From the NCBI GenBank assembly GCA_029262695.1, contig JAJCYV010000008.1:1-64000 (forward strand): a stretch of 64,000 bases of DNA, in the 5' to 3' direction. Shown in pieces: positions 8,077 through 54,012 of this stretch. Source of the stretch: Chloroflexota bacterium. GTDB lineage: Bacteria > Chloroflexota > Dehalococcoidia > SM23-28-2 > RBG-16-64-32. The position numbers and the translations under genes are program-made. The notes under the pieces were generated by a model. The model was not told the origin of the DNA. It saw nothing but the letters and a program-made list of their open reading frames with translations, and did no database searches. The stretch's first letter is position 1. Each line of letters starts with the position of its first letter.

Positions 8077-8104
8077 CCTAAATCGAGGTTAAGGAACGGT
8101 TTAG
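8077..8104 (-). promoter_or_regulatory. 11-bp-spaced TTAAC-type direct repeats upstream of the HExxH gene
   Basis: On the minus strand CTAAAC (8104-8099), CTTAAC (8093-8088) and TTTAGG (8082-8077) recur at exactly 11-base steps, about 60-85 bases before the proposed CTG start. The same layout occurs upstream of 17988-18737, 19040 and 51912. The spacing is that of OmpR/PhoB-family sites. Confidence 0.5.
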
Positions 8105-8173
8105 ACGGGTTCAGTTAACAGCCGGTAAAGATGGGTCGCGGCTTGGGGAACGATCGCGCTAACAGGTGTGGCG

Positions 8174-17987: not shown

Positions 17988-18737
17988 CTAGTTGAAGGTG
18001 GCGTCCGTCGCTCCTGCGTCATCGAGCGGGGCGCGGAAGCCGGGGCCCCCGAAGCGCGGGCCGCCAAACGGGCGGGAACCGTCGCCGAGGCCGTCCGGCC
18101 GGTCTTCGCCAGGTACCTTCTCGACGATGCGGTCGATCGACTCGGTGATCTTCGCGAGGATATTGTCGGCCTGCTCCTGCGTGATCGCCCCTTCACTGAC
18201 CTTCGCGTCTAGGTCGGCCGCGATGGCGGTGAGCAGGTCGGCCTTGAACTGCTCCACTTCGACGCCCTGAGCCGTCGCGACGTCGGCGAGGCTGTTGCCG
18301 TCGTGCAGCTCTTCCTGGAGCGCTTCGACTTCCATGCCGAGCACCTCAGCCGAGTTCTGGACGATGCCGGCGACGAGCCGCTGGAACTTGCCGTGGTGAC
18401 CGCCGTGATGACCGCCACCGAACGGCGGGAGCAGGCGTCCTTCGCCGCTCTCGATGCGCTCGATGATCTCCGCGGCCTCTTCCGCCGTGAGCGTGCCGTC
18501 GGCAACCTTCTCGTTGACCAGGTCGACGTGGCTCTGCGTCATCGCCCCTTCAAGCTCCTCAACGGTGATGCCGAGGTTATCCGCCAGCACTTCGAGGTAG
18601 TGGTCGACGGGCCGTTCTCCCTCGACGGCTGCGGTGTCGCCTTCCGGAGTGGCCTCCTGGGCGCCCGCACCGGCGACGGCGACGATGCCGACGGCCAGCG
18701 CTGCCAGTACACCTCCTGCGACTAGGAACTTTTTCAC
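17988..18737 (-). CDS. secreted His/Gly-rich helical protein divergent from a two-component system
   Basis: 249 residues starting at GTG 18737 with AAGGAGGG seven bases upstream. A signal peptide (about 1-26) is followed by two related helical modules: LEVLADNLGITVEELEGAM...LTAEEAAEIIERI, and AEVLGMEVEALQEEL...ITQEQADNILAKI. Between them lies a His-rich GGGHHGGHHGKF stretch that could bind metal. A Gly/Pro/Arg/Phe tail ends the protein. No named family is recognised. The promoter carries CTAAT/CTAAC boxes 11 bp apart, as does the divergent response regulator, so it is a likely target of that system. Confidence 0.7.
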   Translation of the reverse strand: MKKFLVAGGVLAALAVGIVAVAGAGAQEATPEGDTAAVEGERPVDHYLEVLADNLGITVEELEGAMTQSHVDLVNEKVADGTLTAEEAAEIIERIESGEGRLLPPFGGGHHGGHHGKFQRLVAGIVQNSAEVLGMEVEALQEELHDGNSLADVATAQGVEVEQFKADLLTAIAADLDAKVSEGAITQEQADNILAKITESIDRIVEKVPGEDRPDGLGDGSRPFGGPRFGGPGFRAPLDDAGATDATFN

Positions 18738-18805
18738 TCGATCCCTCCTTCTGAGAATTGCTCTTTGGTTCTAGAGCCATACTCTCGTTGCGCCATGAAC
18801 CGACT

Positions 18806-18831
18806 ATTAGAGGGGCGTTAGAGTTTCTTAA
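18806..18831 (-). promoter_or_regulatory. direct-repeat boxes upstream of the secreted His-rich gene
   Basis: Minus strand TTAAG (18831-18827), CTAAC (18821-18817) and CTAAT (18810-18806). The last two are exactly 11 bases apart and the first step is 10. They lie about 70-95 bases before the GTG start. Confidence 0.5.
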
Positions 18832-18850
18832 TGCTGGAAGGTTGGGGTCC

Positions 18851-18877
18851 GTTCGCCCTGAGTATCGAAGGGCGAAC
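18851..18877. repeat. REP-like hairpin with TATCGA loop
   Basis: GTTCGCCCT / AGGGCGAAC arms around GAGTATCGA. Arms and loop core match the copy at 49072-49101, and the loop matches 48974-49005 in reverse orientation. Confidence 0.7.
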
Positions 18878-18996
18878 AGGGGGCTGCCAACGGATCGATC
18901 AACGGATAAGCGAATCACGCCAGCGCGGGAACATCCGTCTACCCGTTTCCCGTATTAGTTGACAGAATCCCCGCGGGCGAAACCGGATGTGCGCCG

Positions 18997-19012
18997 TTAA
19001 CGTTCCTTTAAT
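18997..19012 (+). promoter_or_regulatory. autoregulatory-type direct repeats at the response regulator promoter
   Basis: TTAAC at 18997-19001 and TTAAT at 19008-19012, 11 bases apart. They overlap the expected -35 region of a TACCAT -10 (19023-19028), as for a PhoB-type activator site. Confidence 0.5.
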
Positions 19013-19039
19013 GTCAAGCGTCTACCATCCAGGCGAACC

Positions 19040-19711
19040 ATGTACGTACTACTTGTGGAAGATGAACGCCGCCTCTCGCAACTCGTGCGCCGCGTGCTCG
19101 AAGAAGAAGGCCACACCGTCGATGCCGCTTTCGACGGCGAGGAAGGTCTGGCGATGGGCCTCGAAGGCACGCACGACGTGATCCTGCTCGACATCATGCT
19201 CCCGGAGAAGGACGGCATCGAGGTCTGCAAGTCGCTCCGCCGCAAGAAGGTCGACACGCCCGTCCTGCTCCTGACCGCGCTCGACGGCGTGGACGACCGC
19301 GTCCGCGGCCTCGACGCCGGCGCCGACGACTACCTGCCGAAGCCGTTCGCCTTCCAGGAGCTGCTGGCCCGTCTGCGCGCCCTCTCCCGTCGCCGCGTCC
19401 AGACGAGCGACCCGCTGGAGATGAAGGTTAACGATCTGAGCCTCGACGTGCGCCGCCGTCGTGCCGAGCGCGACGGGAGTCCGATCGATCTCAGCCCGAA
19501 GGAGTTCTCGCTGCTCGAGTTCCTCATGCGCAACCAGGGTCGCGTCGTCACCCGGACGCAAATACTGGACCACCTCTGGGGCTACGACTTCGCGACTGAC
19601 TCCAACCTCGTCGACGTCTACGTGGCTTACCTCCGCCGCAAGGTCGATAAGGGCCACGACCAAAAGCTGATCCGCACGGTCCGGGGCGTCGGTTACGCCC
19701 TCGGTGATTAG
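19040..19711 (+). CDS. OmpR/PhoB-family response regulator
   Basis: 223 residues. Receiver domain about 1-118 has acidic pocket Glu7-Asp8, phospho-acceptor Asp51 (LLDIMLP), Thr79 and Lys101. The winged-helix effector (about 130-223) contains LSPKEFSLLEFLMRNQGRV and ends VRGVGYALGD, the OmpR/PhoB type. Transcription factor partnered with the kinase starting two bases downstream. The promoter carries an 11-bp direct repeat suited to its own family, so autoregulation is likely. The signal is unknown. Confidence 0.93.
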   Translation: MYVLLVEDERRLSQLVRRVLEEEGHTVDAAFDGEEGLAMGLEGTHDVILLDIMLPEKDGIEVCKSLRRKKVDTPVLLLTALDGVDDRVRGLDAGADDYLPKPFAFQELLARLRALSRRRVQTSDPLEMKVNDLSLDVRRRRAERDGSPIDLSPKEFSLLEFLMRNQGRVVTRTQILDHLWGYDFATDSNLVDVYVAYLRRKVDKGHDQKLIRTVRGVGYALGD

Positions 19712-19713
19712 GC

Positions 19714-20979
19714 ATGTTCAGCGCGGCTCGGTGGCGCCTGGCGCTCTGGTTTGCCGGCGCCTTCGCCGTGCTCCTCGTTCTCATCGGGGGTGCCGTTTAC
19801 TTCGTCACCCGGGCGGCTCTGTACGATCAGGTCGACGACGACCTGCAGACGCGAATCTCAGCCCTTCAGAGCACGCTCATCCGGGAGTTTCGCGGGCCGC
19901 TGGGCCCGGGCATTCAGCGCGACGAGTTCCGGCTTGCGGCTCGTTTGCTGTCTGCGGGAGGCTATTCGGCTGCCATCGTCGTAGAGGGAGAGGGCGACCC
20001 GGTCGGCACGGCGAACATCGAGGAGATCGCGATCCCGTCGTTCGAGGAGCTCAGGGCGGATGTCGGCGAGGGTTCAGCCATCATTGACAGCAGCACGTCG
20101 GGTGGTGAGGACGTTCGCCTGCTTGTGGAGCGGCTGGGCCCGACTGCCTTCATGACCGTGGGGCGTAGCATCGAGCCAGAGCAGCAGGCGCTGAACCGGC
20201 TGCTCCTCGTCCTGGCCGCCGGCGGCGTCTTCGGCCTGGCGTTGGCCTGTGGCGGTGGCTTCCTGCTCTCAGGGCGTGCGCTGCGGCCGATCCGGAGCGC
20301 AATGGACGCCCAGCGCACCTTCGTCGCCGACGCCTCGCACGAGCTGCGGACGCCGCTCTCGCTAATCCGCGCCAACGCCGAGATCATGAAGCGCGAGGGC
20401 GCAGGTGAGAGCGCCGAGTCGGTGGACGACATCATCAAAGAGACGGACCACCTGAGCTACCTTGTCGGCCAGATGCTGACGCTGGCGCGCGCCGATGTGC
20501 ACGAATCGCCCTTCGCGAGAGAGGACGTCGACCTTTCGAGCCTGGCCGGCGATATCGTCCGCGAGGCGCAGGTGCTGGCGCGCGAGAAGTCGATCACGCT
20601 CGTCTACGAAGGTGAGGACGGTCTGCACGTGGCCGGCGACGGGCAGCGGCTGCGCGAAGTCCTGCTGATCCTGCTCGACAATGCGTTCAAGTACAGCGAC
20701 GAGGGTGGGAGCGTCAGCGTGCGGCTGGCGGCCGAGGGCTCTGGTGTCCGCCTCGCCGTCGCCGACAAGGGCCACGGCATCCCGGCCTCCGATCTGCCCC
20801 ACGTCTTCGATCGCTTCTACCGCGTCGACAAGGCGCGTTCCCGCGAGATGGGTGGCACGGGGTTGGGCTTGGCGATCGCGCTCTGGATCACCGAAGAGCA
20901 CGGCGGGACGGTCCGCCTTGAGAGCGTGGCCGGCGAGGGAACGACGGTTACCGTCGGACTGCCGGCGGTCAAGGCCTAG
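19714..20979 (+). CDS. two-component sensor histidine kinase
   Basis: 421-residue membrane kinase. TM1 is about 8-33, an extracytoplasmic sensor region about 34-160, and TM2 about 165-190. A short HAMP-like linker leads to HisKA with SHELRTPLS (His about 208). The catalytic domain has the N box LLDNAFKYSD (about 320), G1 VADKGHGIP and G2 GGTGLGLAIA. It begins two bases after the response-regulator stop, so the pair is translationally linked. The sensor region is not a named domain, so the ligand cannot be stated. Confidence 0.93.
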   Translation: MFSAARWRLALWFAGAFAVLLVLIGGAVYFVTRAALYDQVDDDLQTRISALQSTLIREFRGPLGPGIQRDEFRLAARLLSAGGYSAAIVVEGEGDPVGTANIEEIAIPSFEELRADVGEGSAIIDSSTSGGEDVRLLVERLGPTAFMTVGRSIEPEQQALNRLLLVLAAGGVFGLALACGGGFLLSGRALRPIRSAMDAQRTFVADASHELRTPLSLIRANAEIMKREGAGESAESVDDIIKETDHLSYLVGQMLTLARADVHESPFAREDVDLSSLAGDIVREAQVLAREKSITLVYEGEDGLHVAGDGQRLREVLLILLDNAFKYSDEGGSVSVRLAAEGSGVRLAVADKGHGIPASDLPHVFDRFYRVDKARSREMGGTGLGLAIALWITEEHGGTVRLESVAGEGTTVTVGLPAVKA

Positions 20980-51448: not shown

Positions 51449-51673
51449 CTAGCGGGACTTCGCTGCCGTGCCGTTGCCGTTGGACTTTACGGAGCGCACC
51501 ATCATCTTGCGCTGGCTGTAGTTGAGGAAGGCGCGGGACTTGCCGCATCGCTTGCAGACGCCTTCACTGGTTTCACCGTTCGGAGTGGCGATCTGCCAGT
51601 GGTGCGCGCAGCCGTCGTCTTCGATATCGACGTCGGGCTCAAGCGTGGTCGCCTCGGCTCGCTGCTGTGCCAA
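51449..51673 (-). CDS. small zinc-ribbon-like protein
   Basis: 74 residues from TTG 51673 with GGGAGG upstream. Cys-Ala-His-His (CAHHWQIATPNG) and CKRCGKSRAFLNY supply a likely C-H/C-C zinc site. The acidic N-terminus and basic C-terminus flank it. No named family; similar small ribbons are common near housekeeping genes. It has its own TATAGT promoter (51776-51781), a leader of about 95 bases and a terminator. Its promoter shares a motif with that of the DUF5679 gene. Confidence 0.75.
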   Translation of the reverse strand: MAQQRAEATTLEPDVDIEDDGCAHHWQIATPNGETSEGVCKRCGKSRAFLNYSQRKMMVRSVKSNGNGTAAKSR

Positions 51674-51768
51674 TATGGGCCTCCCTCTGGCGTGGTCCCC
51701 GCCGTAGTCGGGGCACGGGCGAAACGGTGCGCCGAAACCAGCTGCGGATGGGGCGAAGCCGGGGCCGA

Positions 51769-51788
51769 CGTTCCCACTATAACGTAAA
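51769..51788 (-). promoter_or_regulatory. promoter motif shared with DUF5679 gene
   Basis: Plus-strand CGTTCCCA-CTA-TAACGTAA contains the TATAGT -10 on the minus strand. It matches 22109-22124 (CGTTCCCATAACGTAA) except for the CTA insertion. Confidence 0.5.
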
Positions 51789-51837
51789 CGTGAGGTTTAG
51801 GCCAAGCCCATCTGCGGACACCGGACATTAGCGTTCC

Positions 51838-51864
51838 TTAACTTTCTCCTAACCTGACCTTAAC
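51838..51864 (+). promoter_or_regulatory. triple 11-bp-spaced TTAAC boxes at the ABC exporter promoter
   Basis: TTAAC 51838-51842, CTAAC 51849-51853, TTAAC 51860-51864, each step 11 bases. The last two overlap the -35 region of TACGAT (51875-51880), as expected for a PhoB-type activator site. Confidence 0.6.
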
Positions 51865-51911
51865 TGCACTCTCCTACGATTTCAGGCGATATATCTGAAG
51901 AAGGAGTGACC

Positions 51912-53306
51912 ATGAAGACTCTTCGTTGGGCTGCGCGTGCCCTCTTGCGCGCACCGCTACGCGCGGCCCTATTGGTTGGCGTCCTCGGCGTCAGCATCGG
52001 TCTAGCGCTGATCATGATTACAGTCGACGGCGCGTTCGACGAGCGTCTCGATGAGATCCAGAGCGAGGTCGGCACGACGCTGACCGTGCAGCCAGCGGGG
52101 AGCTTCGGCGGCGGGTTCATCCTCCGTGGCGGTTTCGGTCCCGGCGCGGGTGGTGGGCCCAACGCCCCGAACGCCGGCGACACCGCGGATGGTGCCGATA
52201 CCGACGCTGATGCTGGCCAGGCGACGCTCACCGACGAAGCCGCTGAGGCGATCGCCTCAATCGAGCACGTGACGGACTACGCTCGCACGATCACCGCGCT
52301 GTACTCCGGTGACGAGTTGGTCGCGGGCACGGTCGAACGGCCTGGCAACTCGCCGTTCGCCGGGAACCTGCCAGAAGGTGGGCGCCCGATACTCATCCTC
52401 GTAACCGGCACCGATGACCCGACAGAGCTCTCCTCCCTCGGCGTCCAAAACGCTGAGATCACGAGTGGCCGCACGTTTGAGGTTGACGAAGGAGAGGCGA
52501 ACGTCGCCGTGATCGGCGAGGGCCTGGCGGAGGCCAACGGGCTTGTGGTCGGCGACACTTTCAGCGTGAACGAGGCAGAGGTAGAGGTTGTTGGGATCTA
52601 CACCAGCGGAACGCAGTTCGGCGACAACGCCATGTTCCTTCCGCTCGACACCGCGCGCGCCCTCTTCGACCGCGAAGGTGAGGTCGACGCGATCAGCGTC
52701 CGGGTGGACACGGCGGAGAACGTTAGCGCGACGGCCGAGGCGATCCGCGAGACTCTCGGCGAGGATGTCGCCGACGTGACGACGCAGGAAGCGACGTTCG
52801 ATGCCATCAGCGCGCCGCTGGCCGATGCTGCCGACAGCAGCCGGATCGGCATGATCGCAGCGCTAATCGCCAGTGCTGCGATCATCCTCTTCTCGGTCGC
52901 TATCGTCGCGCGGCAGCGGATCAAAGAGATCGGAATCCTCAAAGCGATCGGCGCTTCGAACTGGCACGTCGTCGGCCAGATGACGCTGGAGACGGCGTTC
53001 GTCGCTGTCATCGCAGCGGTTATCGGTGCTCTCGCCACGTTCCCGCTGGCGCAAACGGTCGCTAACGGCCTGGTGTCCGATCCGACGATCCAGGTCGGCG
53101 GCTTCGGTCGGCCGGGCGGCGGCGCTGCCGTTCAAGCGGTGGACGGCCCGGGAAGCAACTTGCTCGGCGAGGTTGATGTTGCCGTCTCGCCCGAAGTCTT
53201 TGGCTACGCGCTGGCAATCGCGCTTGGCCTCGCGCTGGTGGCGACCCTAATCCCGGCCTGGTATGTGGGCCGGGTCAAGCCAGCGGAGGTGCTTCGTTAT
53301 GAGTAA
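51912..53306 (+). CDS. MacB/FtsX-type ABC transporter permease
   Basis: 464 residues from ATG 51912 with GAAGGAG upstream. An N-terminal helix (about 15-38), a large extracytoplasmic domain (about 40-310, with a Gly-rich loop GGGFILRGGFGPGAGGG) and three C-terminal helices form the MacB_PCD/FtsX layout. RQRIKEIGILKAIGAS is the conserved coupling region before the second FtsX helix. It exports or extracts lipids, peptides or lipoproteins. The ATPase gene overlaps it by 8 bases. The promoter carries response-regulator-type boxes. Confidence 0.9.
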   Translation: MKTLRWAARALLRAPLRAALLVGVLGVSIGLALIMITVDGAFDERLDEIQSEVGTTLTVQPAGSFGGGFILRGGFGPGAGGGPNAPNAGDTADGADTDADAGQATLTDEAAEAIASIEHVTDYARTITALYSGDELVAGTVERPGNSPFAGNLPEGGRPILILVTGTDDPTELSSLGVQNAEITSGRTFEVDEGEANVAVIGEGLAEANGLVVGDTFSVNEAEVEVVGIYTSGTQFGDNAMFLPLDTARALFDREGEVDAISVRVDTAENVSATAEAIRETLGEDVADVTTQEATFDAISAPLADAADSSRIGMIAALIASAAIILFSVAIVARQRIKEIGILKAIGASNWHVVGQMTLETAFVAVIAAVIGALATFPLAQTVANGLVSDPTIQVGGFGRPGGGAAVQAVDGPGSNLLGEVDVAVSPEVFGYALAIALGLALVATLIPAWYVGRVKPAEVLRYE

Positions 53307-54012
53307 TACTGCAGTCGCCACGAGTTCTGGCGCGGCCGTCCTGGAAGATGTCGTCAAGCACTTCAAGAGTGGCTCCGACACCGTACACGCCGTCGATGGC
53401 GTTTCGGTCGCGATCCCACGCGGCAAACTCGTCGCTCTCAAAGGCCCGAGCGGCTGCGGGAAGAGCACGCTCCTCAACCTTCTGGGCGCGCTCGATCGGC
53501 CGGACTCCGGACGCATCGTTGTTGACGGCGCCGATGTTTCGGGCCTGAGCGGCGCGGCCGAGGTGGCCTACCGGCGCGACAAGGTGGGTTTCGTCTTCCA
53601 GATGTTCAACCTGATGCCCTACCTCTCGGCGATCGAGAACGTGATGCTTCCGATGGAGCTGCGAGGCGAGCCGAACGCACAGGGGCGCCGGACGCTGGCT
53701 GAGTCGCTTCTCTCGCGAGTCAAGCTGGCGCCGGACCGCCACCGCCGGCGTCCGACGCGCCTCTCGGGCGGAGAGCAGCAGCGGGTCGCCATCGCCCGGG
53801 CGCTGGCCAACGATCCGTCACTGATCCTGGCCGACGAGCCGACGGCGAACCTGGACTCAACTACTGGCGAACAGATCGTCGGACTCCTGCGCAGCCTCGC
53901 CAGCGATGACCGGACCGTCCTCATCGCCACGCACGACAACTCGATCGCGCGTCAGGCCGATCTGGTGGTCACGATGCGCGACGGCAAGCTTGTGGGCCGC
54001 GACGAAGGCTAA
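53299..54012 (+). CDS. ABC transporter ATP-binding protein (MacB/LolD type)
   Basis: 237 residues from ATG 53299, inside the end of the permease gene. Walker [13 protein letters not shown]-loop [18 protein letters not shown], signature [15 protein letters not shown], Walker [14 protein letters not shown] and the H-loop IATHD are all intact. Energy-coupling subunit for the upstream permease. LolD/MacB-type by sequence. No adaptor (MacA-like) gene is adjacent. Confidence 0.93.

Follow-up and report, generated by a model that had tools for sequence, protein, structure and literature searches.

The DNA directly upstream of an ABC exporter operon in a genome of the Chloroflexota (contig JAJCYV010000008.1) carries a series of TTAAC-like boxes, which raises the question of whether these boxes form a genuine operator and whether they place the exporter under the control of a two-component system (TCS) encoded 32 kb away. 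The window analyzed here is the 64,000-nucleotide stretch covering positions 1 to 64,000 of this contig, and the exporter locus within it comprises the following features:

51828 to 51864, plus strand: putative four-box operator array of the exporter promoter (TTAGC at 51828, TTAAC at 51838, CTAAC at 51849, TTAAC at 51860)
51875 to 51880, plus strand: predicted -10 element TACGAT, beginning 15 bp downstream of the first base of box 4
51912 to 53306, plus strand: ABC permease with MacB_PCD and FtsX domains (464 aa, four predicted TM segments)
53263 to 54012, plus strand: ABC ATPase of LolD/MacB type, overlapping the end of the permease gene

The permease gene starts at the ATG at 51912, preceded by GAAGGAG, and the true start of the ATPase gene is probably the ATG at 53299. 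The boxes follow one another at steps of 10/11/11 bp. The original prediction described three TTAAC boxes at exact 11-bp steps; their positions and steps hold, but the middle box reads CTAAC, and a fourth box, TTAGC at 51828, had been missed. Its placement of the boxes over the -35 region of TACGAT is roughly right: given a 17-bp spacer, the -35 slot falls at 51852-51857, between boxes 3 and 4. On the minus strand of the neighboring region 51500-51800 there is also a promoter-like stretch in divergent orientation, CACGTTTACGTTATAGT, which is kept in same-genus relatives and possibly serves a small leftward ORF of CxxC zinc-ribbon-like type (CKRCGKSRAF).

The second locus, to which the original prediction linked the exporter through repeats at 18806-19012, is organized as follows:

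18796 to 18831, minus strand: four-box array of the secreted-protein promoter (steps 10/11/11; fourth box degenerate, TTCA)
17988 to 18737, minus strand: secreted helical protein, its sequence containing DUF2680-like repeats and, locally, a His-rich run (GGGHHGGHHG)
18997 to 19012, plus strand: putative two-box operator TTAAC-11-TTAAT of the response-regulator promoter, equivalent to boxes 3 and 4 of the array
19023 to 19028, plus strand: predicted -10 element TACCAT, beginning 15 bp downstream of the first base of the last box
19040 to 19711, plus strand: OmpR/PhoB-family response regulator, the candidate activator (Pfam PF00072 and PF00486)
19714 to 20979, plus strand: sensor histidine kinase (two predicted TM segments; extracytoplasmic domain, about 120 aa)

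The repeats are thus real, and resolve into the minus-strand array and the two-box element listed above. The DUF2680-like gene is divergent from the TCS, and its array is oriented in the sense direction of the gene. The predicted fold of its product is helical, with moderate confidence; a PDB search yielded no match at E<=0.001, and a literature search on DUF2680 found nothing relevant. The regulator combines a receiver domain with a C-terminal Trans_reg_C winged helix, and its predicted target promoters carry direct-repeat half-sites 10-11 bp apart, both as in the OmpR/PhoB family; from these features we infer that it binds the half-sites.

Such boxes could in principle be AT-rich promoter pentamers aligned by accident, since TTAA-like words are frequent near promoters. 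The pattern YTAAC-N6-YTAAC-N6-YTAAC occurs without mismatch only once in the 2.53-Mb genome, at the exporter promoter, and one mismatch adds a single genome match, upstream of pstS. With up to two mismatches, the four-box pattern matches the window twice, at the exporter and DUF2680 promoters, and was absent from all 100 dinucleotide-preserving shuffles. A weak array-like stretch at 8078-8118, TCTAAACCGTTCCTTAACCTCGATTTAGG, lacks profile support. Orthologous promoters from relatives (9 from exporters and 15 from DUF2680 genes) were placed in an ungapped 62-bp alignment, anchored at box 1 by eye; blind searches recover those anchors and more. All four boxes align at 10/11/11 without a gap across the whole set, and a TANNNT hexamer follows, 15 bp from the first base of box 4, in 9/9 exporter and 12/15 DUF2680 promoters, the three exceptions being those of the window's own genus, where GAGTAT or GAGGAT occupies the -10 offset. 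The exporter promoter of one relative (G010) and the DUF2680 promoter of another (G005) have 15 identical bases in common, ATTAAGGAACTCTAA. The regulator promoter retains TTAA(C/T)-11-TTAAT in 12/15 orthologs and TANNNT 15 bp past the last box in 14/15.

The two promoter types also predict each other. When a weight matrix is trained solely on DUF2680 promoters of other genera, the exporter promoter scores highest among about 128,000 window positions (29.7 bits), followed by the window's own DUF2680 promoter (28.0 bits) and, far below, an unrelated site (-3.5 bits); the maximum over 100 simulated windows was 7.1 bits. The reciprocal matrix places the DUF2680 promoter first and the exporter promoter second. 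With the boxes kept across genera and promoters of unrelated genes predicting each other, accidental alignment is refuted by conservation and its probability is practically nil. The original prediction named a lack of conservation in orthologous promoters as grounds for giving it up, and the opposite was found: comparison of the sequences confirms the tandem boxes before the exporter as a real, evolutionarily conserved element.

A profile built from sequence only was applied at a genome-wide threshold of E<=1 and returned four sites in the 2.5-Mb genome: two at the exporter and DUF2680-like promoters described above, one at a YkcB-like glycosyltransferase gene and one at a gene for a small secreted protein. 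The glycosyltransferase gene (PMT_2) lies 28 kb beyond the window and is preceded by three good boxes at 11-bp steps (contig C8:91918-91962). It was not found in the 20 relatives searched, so conservation cannot check its site; the gene was possibly gained recently, carrying the operator with it. The small secreted protein is encoded on contig C32, and the gene of its 40%-identical homolog in another genus also carries the array. Two boxes and a -10 element precede an HtrA-like lipoprotein protease gene that is transcribed away from a gene for an ECF sigma factor (contig C4:9868-9884). HtrA sites in the window genus consist of two boxes only, at an offset of 16 bp from the -10; for this ortholog they are kept only within the genus, none having been found beyond it, which makes the protease a tentative member of the predicted regulon. 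A match at C26:11307, which falls within a coding ORF, probably arose by chance.

In the relatives, sites that had no part in training precede HtrA protease genes in four genomes (G005, G008, G011 and G013), as well as genes for YceI, PDZ and PepSY proteins, a second MacB-like permease, and further DUF2680-like and small secreted proteins. By our own reading of N-termini, the products of most putative targets look exported or membrane-bound. Across the class, profile matches at E<=1e-4 are confined to 6 of 148 genomes. The best match outside the order, in a genome of another family (G120), lies between a regulator gene and a divergent PDZ-protein gene; the regulator is 69% identical to that of the window, and the PDZ protein is 58% identical to the one found blind in G013. 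This match, the only one in that distant family and outside the training set, is the strongest single confirmation obtained. In another genome outside the order (G070), a profile match of 1.7e-6 precedes a Rieske/ferredoxin-like operon (contig C177:2490-2539).

The TCS at 19040-20979 is most likely the controller of the arrays, or at least the prime candidate, because its own promoter carries the putative operator and its divergent neighbor carries the array. In the relative G010, the TCS, the DUF2680 gene and the exporter form a single locus, and in G006 an island (contig C25:1-10500) assembles genes for a paralogous TCS, ApbE, ferric-reductase-like, intradiol-dioxygenase-like, YceI, exporter and HtrA proteins, several of whose promoters carry the array. 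Among 32 genomes, which are incomplete MAGs, array presence tracks the window-type regulator (Fisher p 8e-5, or p 0.003 for sites away from the TCS locus only) and is unrelated to the pst-linked regulator (p 1.0), in counts that disregard relatedness and genome incompleteness. In G007 (72% complete), arrays are present and no regulator ortholog was detected; in family f4, the regulator is present and arrays are weak or missing. The placement of exporter, secreted protein and TCS in one regulon is strongly supported, with the array kept in orthologous promoters and the genes physically joined in relatives.

Other regulators could nonetheless act on the same promoter. OmpR-family regulators have 11-bp TTAA-like repeats in common, so a paralog, rather than the regulator 32 kb away, could use the same sites to control the exporter, and TCS paralogs of about 58% identity do adjoin array-bearing HtrA, YceI and exporter genes in G006, G008, G011 and G013. 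At E<=1e-60, however, the window genome holds only two other relatives of the regulator (49-51% identical, contig C22), the profile detects no array beside them, and the blind match in the distant family adjoins the orthologous regulator, which together leave control by a paralog unlikely. Still less probable, and in our judgment very unlikely, is that the array consists of Pho boxes bound by a PhoB/PhoP-type regulator, with the exporter in the phosphate regulon. The resemblance is one of tandem TTAA-containing half-sites about 11 bp apart that end just upstream of the -10, and elsewhere in the genome the triple box has a single near-match, with tandem repeats at 10/11-bp steps, at the pstS site, a canonical Pho operator (contig C41:43600-43646; pst-linked regulator at C41:44440-45123). 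The relatives' pstS consensus nevertheless differs, reading TTTTACG..CGTTAAACGC(C/T)GTTAACA..CGTTAA: in the pst promoters of this group, G precedes TTAA, whereas the boxes here are of YTTAA/YCTAA type, with C or T before TTAA at the exporter and no GTTAA box. Box log-odds, of which the sign rather than the size should be read given the small training set, are envelope-type for the exporter (+29.6) and Pho-type for pstS (-6.6, -9.1 and -6.9), and at E<=1 the profile matches none of the nine pstS loci that were searched. Membership of the exporter in the Pho regulon is thus rejected on box consensus, profile search and co-occurrence, and the targets differ as well.

The nature of the stress is a related matter, for the original prediction proposed an envelope- or metal-stress circuit. 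In a metal circuit, the His-rich protein would buffer the metal and the exporter would remove it; the GGGHHGGHHG run of the secreted protein fits this, as does the best NCBIfam match of the regulator, a heavy-metal subfamily. Yet most orthologs have a reduced His run or none, and for this lack of conservation such a circuit was rejected; the regulator, moreover, reaches 252.4 bits, under the TIGR01387 cut-off of 279.2 for the CzcR/SilR/CopR subfamily. Permeases of this type are not known to export metals, and the predicted targets are HtrA, YceI and PDZ proteins. A metal circuit has an even slighter chance than Pho control, and of the two stresses it is the envelope that the predicted targets, including the MacB-type exporter, favor.

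Taken together, the boxes are quite probably the operator of the OmpR/PhoB-family regulator at 19040-19711, through which it would activate an envelope/secretion-stress regulon including the TCS, the DUF2680-like gene and the exporter. In the proposed mechanism, the kinase at 19714-20979 would phosphorylate the regulator, two dimers of which would occupy the four half-sites (10/11/11 bp) in tandem, all on the same face of the helix. The TANNNT promoter lacks a -35 element, whose place would lie between boxes 3 and 4, so we propose that the regulator, acting as a class II-type activator, recruits RNA polymerase; this geometry, read with established knowledge of PhoB-like activators, suggests such activation. 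The regulator would activate its own operon via two boxes, and the divergent DUF2680-like gene and the MacB/LolD-type exporter via four, with the YkcB-like glycosyltransferase, the small secreted protein and the HtrA protease as further candidate targets in the window genome. The signal may be a damaged or misfolded extracytoplasmic protein or envelope, as in CssRS, MprAB or Cpx, since the target list (HtrA, PDZ, YceI, exporter and small secreted helical proteins) points to a response to extracytoplasmic or envelope damage. Regulator binding, activation rather than repression and the signal are what we infer from these patterns.

A broader proposal, possible rather than probable in our estimation, is that this is an undescribed envelope/secretion-stress regulon centered on one order of the Chloroflexota, with a four-half-site operator (10/11/11) 15 bp before the -10, the DUF2680-like protein as a CpxP-like feedback sensor or chaperone, and the exporter and HtrA as effectors. 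If true, DUF2680 proteins would gain a role. The regulons of uncultured Chloroflexi are almost unknown, and here a motif first read by eye is developed into a regulon prediction open to testing, which specifies the operator grammar exactly, names a candidate regulator and lists conserved targets. The prediction would also give both an orphan MacB/LolD-type exporter and the uncharacterized DUF2680-like family of secreted proteins a place in extracytoplasmic quality control.

Comparison with known envelope-stress systems places the predicted regulon close to several of them, with an HtrA-family protease among its conserved putative targets and a putative operator at the TCS's own promoter, which predicts autoregulation. 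With MprAB of the actinobacterium Corynebacterium glutamicum (PMC12113857) it has in common an OmpR-family TCS, positive autoregulation, an HtrA target and envelope stress, although autoregulation and stress are predicted here. Box 1 of the array, ATTAAGRAAC, is close to the consensus reported for MprA, TKTTAAGAAM, a resemblance that need not mean orthology; MprAB belongs to a different phylum, its sigE and sigB targets were not found here, and the four-box 10/11/11 array is not described in the portion of that report considered (PMC12113857). CssRS/CutRS of Streptomyces controls htrA-family foldase/protease genes upon extracytoplasmic misfolding (PMC12802291), and the predicted system likewise pairs a TCS with HtrA-family targets. 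The CutR consensus TAWATAAA is, however, unlike the boxes here, and CutS senses via two conserved cysteines (PMC12802291), whereas the extracytoplasmic part of the kinase studied here has none.

The exporter belongs to the MacB/LolC/FtsX-type permease superfamily by its MacB_PCD and FtsX domains, its four TM segments and its LolD/MacB-like ATPase. It differs from the MacB macrolide exporter in having the ATPase on a separate chain, no membrane-fusion-protein gene adjoining and a permease score of 18.5 bits against the 966-bit MacB equivalog cut-off; it is also under the NCBIfam cut-off for LolCE. In enterobacteria, CpxRA-CpxP joins an autoregulated TCS to a divergent gene for a small secreted helical protein, with HtrA/DegP among the targets. 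The regulator studied here is not a CpxR ortholog by score (152 bits, far under the NCBIfam equivalog cut-off of 341), and the DUF2680-like protein has no significant structural match in the PDB; the layout is nevertheless the same, with a secreted helical protein gene divergent from the TCS and HtrA among the predicted targets.
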